Shown here piece by piece: positions 1,350 through 1,878 of a DNA stretch of 40,243 nt. The stretch lies in assembly GCA_040752595.1 (NCBI GenBank), contig JBFMGX010000012.1:1-40243 (forward strand), read 5' to 3'. The notes below the pieces were generated by a model. It did not search any database. It was given only the letters and a program-made list of their open reading frames with translations, and was not told where the DNA came from. Each line of letters opens with the position of its first letter. Position 1 is the first letter of the stretch. The position numbers were made by a program, and so were the translations under genes. The DNA comes from Candidatus Zixiibacteriota bacterium. Its GTDB lineage: Bacteria; Zixibacteria; MSB-5A5; WJJR01.

Positions 1350-1412
1350 ACCCTTCGACTCGTTCCGCCGAAGGCGGAACTCGCTCAGGGCAAGCGGAGA
1401 GGCCGGGATTCG
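1350..1412. repeat. 63-bp direct repeat, left copy (contains 18 nt of tRNA-Ser 3' end)
   Basis: Identical by eye to 1747-1809. It begins ACCCTTCGACTCG and ends GGCCGGGATTCG. The last 18 bases (1395-1412) copy the 3' end of the tRNA-Ser gene (1792-1809), but the tRNA sequence does not continue beyond 1412. The internal part CCCTTCG...CTCAGGGCAAGC belongs to a dispersed palindromic repeat type seen again near 25676-25700. Confidence 0.9.
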
Positions 1413-1484
1413 TTTATCCCGAGCGGAGTCGAGGGATTTATCCCGAGCGGAGTCGAGGGATTTATCCCGAGCGGAGTCGAGGGA
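1413..1484. repeat. Three perfect tandem copies of a 24-bp unit
   Basis: Units lie at 1413-1436, 1437-1460 and 1461-1484, each starting TTTATCCCGAGCGG and ending GTCGAGGGA. The array begins directly after the left 63-bp repeat. The third unit forms the last codons and the stop codon (minus strand TAA at 1464-1462) of the GIY-YIG gene. There are no spacers, so this is not a CRISPR array. Confidence 0.95.
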
Positions 1485-1740
1485 AACCCGCAACGAGTTT
1501 CTCCTTCTTCTCTCTGGTCCAGCGCTTCAATTGAGCTTCGCGCCGCCGGGCGCCGTTTTGGTCTGAGTGGATCTCCGAGTACAACAGGACGACCGGTCGT
1601 CGCTGGGCCGTGTACTGGGCACCTTTGTCAGCGTTGTGCTTTCTAATGCGTGCGTCGAGGTCGTCGGTTATGCCGGTATAGATTGACCCGTCGGAGCATC
1701 GGACGAGATAGACAAACCAAGGTCTGTGTGCTGAGGGCAC
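1462..1740 (-). CDS. GIY-YIG domain nuclease, small single-domain type
   Basis: A 92-residue protein consisting of one GIY-YIG nuclease domain (YhbQ/UvrC-N type). Visible signatures are FVYLVRC and YTGIT (the two strands that give the family its name), an Arg/His pair in DARIRKHN, and the metal-binding Glu region in RRREAQLKRW. Stand-alone proteins of this class are common and mostly uncharacterised; some relatives cut branched or damaged DNA. The start is GTG at 1740. The gene sits exactly between two 63-bp direct repeats, and its last residues (FPRLRSG) come from a tandem repeat, so its C-terminus was probably replaced when the repeat array formed. It lies downstream of tRNA-Ser on the same strand. 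Role in this cell unknown. Confidence 0.85.
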   Translation of the reverse strand: MPSAHRPWFVYLVRCSDGSIYTGITDDLDARIRKHNADKGAQYTAQRRPVVLLYSEIHSDQNGARRREAQLKRWTREKKEKLVAGFPRLRSG

Positions 1741-1746
1741 CTATCG

Positions 1747-1809
1747 ACCCTTCGACTCGTTCCGCCGAAGGCGGAACTCGCTCAGGGCAAGCGGAGAGGC
1801 CGGGATTCG
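1747..1809. repeat. 63-bp direct repeat, right copy, overlapping tRNA-Ser 3' end
   Basis: Identical to 1350-1412 with a period of 397 bp. Bases 1792-1809 are the 3' part of the tRNA-Ser gene. A direct repeat that keeps a tRNA 3' end intact and leaves a tRNA fragment at the far side is the usual footprint of integration at a tRNA gene. Confidence 0.9.
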
Positions 1810-1878
1810 AACCCGGGAACGAGTTTCCCCGTTAACTGCTTAGCAGGCAGCTGCCTTCGGCCGCTCGGCCACCTCTCC
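1792..1878 (-). tRNA. tRNA-Ser (anticodon GCU)
   Basis: Folds as a class II tRNA. The acceptor stem pairs GGAGAGG with CCTCTCC. The anticodon stem GCTGC/GCAGT encloses the loop CTGCTAA, which gives anticodon GCT. A long serine-type variable arm follows, and the T-arm is CCGGG-TTCGAAT-CCCGG. The discriminator base is G. CCA is not encoded (CTT follows), so it must be added enzymatically. The 3' end overlaps the right 63-bp direct repeat. Confidence 0.97.

Follow-up and report, generated by a model that had tools for sequence, protein, structure and literature searches.

A putative minimal mobile element with a GIY-YIG nuclease gene at tRNA-Ser(GCU)

The window, a stretch of 40,243 nucleotides from a Candidatus Zixiibacteriota bacterium, contains a small unit behind a tRNA-Ser(GCU) gene. 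Judged from sequence comparisons, it is rather likely that this unit is a minimal mobile element that inserts in tRNA T-loops and is probably driven by its own GIY-YIG nuclease. This reading is preferred because related genes follow tRNA genes in large excess, and because copies of the 3′ end of the unit's own tRNA, with a fixed start in the T-loop, stand at the far border. It is also preferred because these repeats vary with the target, gene-less derivatives exist, and orthologous sites are found empty. Finally, 32 non-Ser tRNA genes of the genome are bare, the targets cluster on the nuclease tree, and the motif of the phage enzyme SegB fits the T-loop. A minimal mobile unit moved by its own nuclease or by a host recombinase had been proposed in the original prediction, and the empty sites, the units in relatives, and the gene-less units support it.

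The unit behind tRNA-Ser(GCU)

The coordinates of the features are collected in Table 1. Along the tRNA strand, tRNA-Ser is followed by the hairpin, the GIY-YIG gene, three 24-nt REP-like half sites, a copy of the tRNA 3′ end, and the hairpin again; the genes flanking the unit are mutM and comB. As originally predicted, two identical 63-bp repeats (1350-1412 and 1747-1809, 100% identity within the window, spacing 397) lie around a complete GIY-YIG gene (92 aa), and the 3′ end of tRNA-Ser(GCU) lies in the right repeat with a copy in the left. Of the 63 nt, 19 belong to the tRNA, and the remaining 44 form a REP-like hairpin, whose DNA fold has -10.5 kcal/mol and a z of -2.4 (1351-1391 folded, in the copy identical to the left element end). 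The unit is thereby bounded at both borders by tRNA 3′-end direct repeats.

Table 1. Features of the unit and its target gene (positions in the window)
Feature	Position	Strand	Basis
tRNA-Ser(GCU), target gene, intact	1791..1878	-	ARAGORN and Rfam
tRNA-proximal direct repeat, T-loop C56 to tRNA 3′ end, CGAATCCCGGCCTCTCCGC	1791..1809	-	repeat comparison
Left element end, REP-like hairpin TTGCCCTGAGCGAG-TTCCGCC/GGCGGAAC-GAGTCGAAGGGT	1747..1790	-	sequence; equivalent position in relatives
GIY-YIG nuclease ORF, 92 aa, UPF0213-type, putative GTG start	1462..1740	-	ORF and Pfam PF01541
Right element end, three perfect 24-nt copies of TCCCTCGACTCCGCTCGGGATAAA	1413..1484	-	repeat comparison; single such end in relatives
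Distal direct repeat, 19-nt copy of the tRNA-Ser(GCU) 3′ end, target-site-duplication-like	1394..1412	-	repeat comparison
Solo second left-end hairpin copy, past the distal repeat	1350..1393	-	repeats; similar solo left ends in L043, L052, and L071

The window repeat is 63 nt instead of 19, probably because a leftover element end adjoins the duplication. This solo left end, of a kind also found after the distal repeat in relatives (Table 1), is probably the leftover of an earlier insertion or a tandem copy. Most simply, it would be a second unit, older or recombined, whose gene was lost. The full identity of the 63-nt copies suggests a recent tandem exchange. The right end may have been expanded locally into the 24-nt array, a feature that the original prediction does not list, probably by secondary tandem amplification as in the relative G004; its gene-nearest copy (1461-1484) overlaps the 3′ end of the ORF.

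In the ORFs of the unit and in a domain search, neither a tyrosine or serine integrase, nor a known transposase (DDE, Y1, serine, or tyrosine), nor a Y1/HUH RAYT was found. The GIY-YIG gene is the sole gene of the unit, which agrees with the earlier view of a unit of about 400 bp with a small nuclease and no integrase. There is no Rfam intron in the window, and the gene is not inside a self-splicing intron.

The encoded protein matches Pfam PF01541 (E=6e-20) and PDB 1zg2 of the UPF0213 / YhbQ-YazA family (E=2e-15), and Y11, Y21, G23, R31, H35, and E68 are 100% conserved in 85 close relatives. By its sequence, it is a GIY-YIG nuclease of the UPF0213 type with the conserved Y, Y, G, R, and E. 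The PDB records of the same family (1zg2 and 1ywl) are of single-domain proteins and state no tie to tRNA genes or palindromes. Plasmid and phage relatives of the nuclease were found, all less than 60% identical. The idea that the nuclease C-terminus arose from the variable arm of the tRNA (repeat D3, 82% over 22 nt) was rejected because about 0.3 chance matches are expected by estimate and KKExLIxGFP is a family motif even without an overlapping tRNA copy. The ORF tails LSKSRD or LSRSRD in L068, L069, L200, L213, L071, and others are apparently encoded by the palindrome-like right end, which apparently supplies the nuclease C-terminus in more than one phylum.

Targets, direct repeats, and gene-less units

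Is the linkage to tRNA genes common among the relatives? A tRNA or tmRNA gene lies within 300 nt upstream on the same strand in 46 of the 165 unique GIY-YIG ORFs, against an expectation of about 0.42, in a set that was collected by similarity, not randomly, and whose near relatives are not independent. Within the same distance, the counts are 2 for upstream on the opposite strand, 14 for downstream on the same strand, and 0 for downstream on the opposite strand. Given the size of the excess, chance is untenable as the source of the linkage. The 119 of 165 relatives without a same-strand tRNA within 300 nt upstream count against the mobile-element reading. Close relatives in the same class are sited behind tRNA-Ser (GCU, CGA, GGA, and UGA), tRNA-Gln, and tmRNA, and relatives in Omnitrophota and Verrucomicrobia behind tRNA-Gln, Lys, His, Glu, and Leu. 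Units of this kind, gene-less miniatures among them, follow tRNA genes in three or more bacterial phyla. On a nuclease tree of 61 domains and 88 columns, in which many forks are open, the target amino acid changes 9 times, compared with 18.5 times when shuffled (0 of 200 as low), and the isoacceptor changes 16 times. Thus, each nuclease clade appears to have a favoured tRNA family, yet shifts among isoacceptors and host families.

At 11 tRNA-Ser loci, it was revealed that an 18-22-nt copy of the 3′ end of the locus's own tRNA, from T-loop C56, follows the gene, and in 11/11 the copy starts at the same place, between GTT and CGAATC. A test for the distal copy over the tRNA-linked loci was positive at p<=0.01 in 17 of 45, a few of which are owed to a neighbouring real tRNA. 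The copy was undetected at most Gln, Lys, His, Glu, and tmRNA loci and is clear mainly in the tRNA-Ser group, which counts against the mobile-element reading. L052 (Ser-UGA) and L055 (Ser-GGA) have a common right end, CTCAGGATCTCCGGGCAATAGCCCT.CGA, ahead of CGAATC, and L043 (Ser-CGA) and L046 (Ser-GGA) have the common right end gactCGCTCAGGGcctgacgg. In both pairs the direct repeat varies with the target. Near-identical ends face different tRNA copies, and therefore the repeat comes from the target, which is the expectation for a target-site duplication. If the element carried an att core, this core would stay the same across targets.

Some orthologous sites are empty. The tRNA-Ser(GGA) gene, recognised by its conserved upstream gene, has no units in five family members (G001, G002, G004, G005, and G006). 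At the tRNA-Ser(GCU) gene behind comB, the site is filled in the window and G003 but empty in two others, G005 and G006, a difference that may reflect gain or loss. The empty tRNA-Ser(GCU) sites that the original prediction looked for thus exist, and its counter-case, a unit inherited only vertically in all relatives, is not seen in full, as the relatives differ in presence. Behind 32 other, non-Ser tRNA genes of the window's own genome, no repeat or REP was found. Linkage to tRNA genes together with element-free alleles is what a free-standing homing endonuclease displays, with the tRNA as its presumable cleavage target. At the tRNA-Ser(CGA) gene of G040 (L176), where G056 and G029 carry a GIY-YIG unit, a tyrosine-integrase element lies exactly at the tRNA 3′ end, and G040 was rejected as a clean empty Ser(CGA) site because of this element.

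I found two gene-less units in the same genome as the window, at tRNA-Ser(GGA) (G000:C27, locus L168). The outer unit is complete with 88 bp, the inner unit lacks most of the left end, and copies of the Ser(GGA) 3′ end stand between and after the units. G004 has an intact element that is separated from tRNA-Ser(GCU) by three 82-bp units in tandem. These units consist of the left end, a few ORF-start-like bases, the last ORF bases, and the right end, followed by CGAATCCCGG, and their ends are those of the adjoining full element. The gene-less units resemble MITEs made by internal deletion. A search for other repeat-GIY-YIG-repeat units had been suggested; such units occur in relatives, and gene-less ones occur in the window's own genome. 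At the level of sequence, these comparisons show insertion at a fixed tRNA place with 18-22 target bases duplicated, and ends common to full and gene-less copies.

Possible mechanism and alternatives

The proposed element has the order tRNA, left palindromic end, GIY-YIG gene, right palindromic end, and tRNA 3′-end copy, and its insertion at tRNA-Ser(GCU) would have kept the tRNA intact. The GIY-YIG protein may recognise the T-loop motif GTTCGAATC and make the break, with one strand cut at the T-loop and the opposite strand cut at the tRNA 3′ end, a distance of about 18 nt. The element DNA would then be joined in, and gap filling would double the 18-22 nt. Alternatively, the protein might make only the break, with repair giving an equivalent outcome. 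Copies with internal deletions could be mobilised in trans. Repeated insertion or recombination at one tRNA would yield tandem arrays, and therefore the solo left end that lengthens the window repeat to 63 bp. A stagger of 18 nt is long for a GIY-YIG enzyme, which counts against the mobile-element reading.

The nuclease is favoured as the mover because of the fixed T-loop breakpoints, the clustering of targets on its tree, and the precedent of SegB. SegB of phages T4 and T6, a free-standing GIY-YIG homing endonuclease, breaks tRNA genes and prefers the motif RAWTSGAAC (PMC13096335). The reverse complement of this motif, GTTCSAWTY, is the T-loop sequence where the repeats start here. By analogy, SegB is the best outside support for the GIY-YIG protein as the breaker. 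Both cases have a GIY-YIG nuclease linked to tRNA genes and a tRNA region amplified in tandem, whereas segB is a phage gene, and the consulted text of PMC13096335 does not describe palindromic ends, target-site-duplication-like repeats, or gene-less derivatives.

The chief rival is a site-specific (tyrosine) recombinase, supplied in trans by the host or by another element, as the agent of integration at the tRNA 3′ end. In that case, attL and attR would be the repeats, and the nuclease would be cargo. As in integrase-borne genomic islands, a tRNA 3′-end direct repeat bounds the unit and the tRNA is intact; such repeats are a hallmark of integrase att sites. Furthermore, tRNA-Ser sites do draw tyrosine integrases, as exemplified by G040, in which an integrase-encoding element occupies precisely this end of tRNA-Ser(CGA), and this counts against the mobile-element reading. 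However, the present unit differs from such islands in having no integrase, a size of about 0.4 kb, a target-derived repeat, and palindromic ends; its neighbours are mutM and comB. The repeat follows the tRNA that is hit while the element ends stay the same, and the target correlates with the nuclease tree. Integration by such a recombinase is therefore unlikely. The same low likelihood is assigned to a free-standing homing endonuclease gene that spreads solely by the cutting of empty alleles of the same tRNA and copying through homologous repair, with the repeat captured once per site and then inherited. The SegB precedent in phages speaks for it, as do the target amino acid kept over large distances and the group I introns adjoining the relatives L265 and L203. 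Isoacceptor switches with new matching repeats need ectopic insertion, beyond what allelic copying alone could do, and so do the gene-less derivatives with the same ends.

Two readings leave the nuclease gene immobile. In the first, which the original prediction named as the main alternative, the tRNA 3′ end would have been duplicated locally in tandem and REPs would have spread independently. Tandem duplication does occur, as seen in the 3x24-nt array, the G004 arrays, and the whole tRNA and GIY-YIG duplication of L096. As the primary event it fails, since the repeat is tRNA-specific also at other tRNAs. The breakpoint at T-loop C56 is fixed in 11/11 tRNA-Ser cases, the same ends occur at unlinked tRNA genes, and orthologous sites are empty. 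Local duplication is thus strongly disfavoured as a sole explanation, with a very small residual probability. A host gene that profits from read-through transcription of the tRNA, with the 3′ copy as a processing signal, would fit the same-strand bias behind tRNAs. This is the least credible of the alternatives, since the distal copy has decayed in some relatives (L045), varies by tRNA, and occurs in gene-less units. The preferred reading remains a mobile element that inserts in tRNA T-loops.

Palindromic repeats and relatives at other sites

In a genome-wide repeat census made by pattern searches, the 63-mer was confined to the window locus in the 2.94-Mb genome. Scattered 63-bp repeats far from any nuclease gene would have spoken against the unit; the 63-mer is unique, but its REP part is scattered. 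The 19-nt core of the 24-nt right end has 37 occurrences at <=2 mismatches in the own genome, compared with 0 for a reversed control. The nuclease gene is accordingly flanked by palindromic repeats that are also dispersed across the genome. As in REP/REPIN and RAYT systems, short palindromes surround one small nuclease gene and gene-less copies are scattered, whereas RAYT is a Y1 HUH transposase and the present unit has a GIY-YIG protein and inserts at tRNA genes with direct repeats. Three points count against the mobile-element reading. The scattered REP copies are mostly distant from any nuclease gene. REP count and nuclease have at best a weak tie across 117 genomes, and REP copy number was for this reason rejected as a stand-in for the nuclease. 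The terminal inverted repeats, which are clear in the mini-elements (TTTATCCTGAGCG vs TTCATCCTGAGCG) and weak in many full copies, are short and singly often no better than shuffles.

A survey of 2013 described a CGTC class of REPs that apparently lacks a dedicated transposase (PMC3733652). A text search of open-licence literature found no description of elements like the present one in cellular genomes. The recurrence of such units behind tRNA genes in several phyla points to a type of very small mobile DNA that has not yet been described. A bolder and rather doubtful proposal is a widespread, undescribed transposon-like class with a GIY-YIG nuclease of about 90 aa as the sole protein, T-loop insertion with target-site duplication, and gene-less miniatures mobilised in trans. 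It might be the missing mobiliser of the common CCTGAGC..GTCGAAGG palindromic repeats across bacterial phyla. The GIY-YIG fold is not known to drive bacterial transposition. If true, the elements would be among the smallest autonomous mobile elements known, and would join tRNA-attacking GIY-YIG homing enzymes, REP-like palindromes, and tRNA integration sites, which are now kept apart.

Several relatives have other arrangements. The 14 tRNA genes within 300 nt downstream on the same strand (e.g., L202 and the second gene of L046) are outside the reach of the insertion model. When 40 loci were searched with Rfam for other structured RNAs as targets of the unlinked relatives, only group I introns near two were found. 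In Omnitrophota, such introns adjoin L265 (951-1176, within a tRNA cluster) and L203 (1992-2265). In L096 (G079:C177), a tRNA-Ser(CGA) gene and a GIY-YIG gene of another clade are duplicated together in tandem. L230 and L221 have extra tRNA-Leu(CAA) or tRNA-Gln 3′-end copies between the tRNA and the GIY-YIG gene, which suggests nested insertions.

Besides the gene of the unit, the window's genome has another small GIY-YIG gene that is more distantly related (L004, G000:C20:69556-69759). It follows tmRNA at a distance of about 110 nt, as does its counterpart in G002 (L132). Different palindromes (TTCTGC..GCAGAA and GCCCTGC..GCAGGGC) precede these genes. No GIY-YIG gene was detected behind the tmRNA of G001, and G005 retains only a similar hairpin start. 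The tmRNA-linked genes probably form a parallel family that has a repeat of its own. In G011, a stretch of 18 nt (C193:14256-14273) matches the T-loop end of tmRNA (model 346-363); it lies about 1.1 kb from the tmRNA and is possibly an integration scar.
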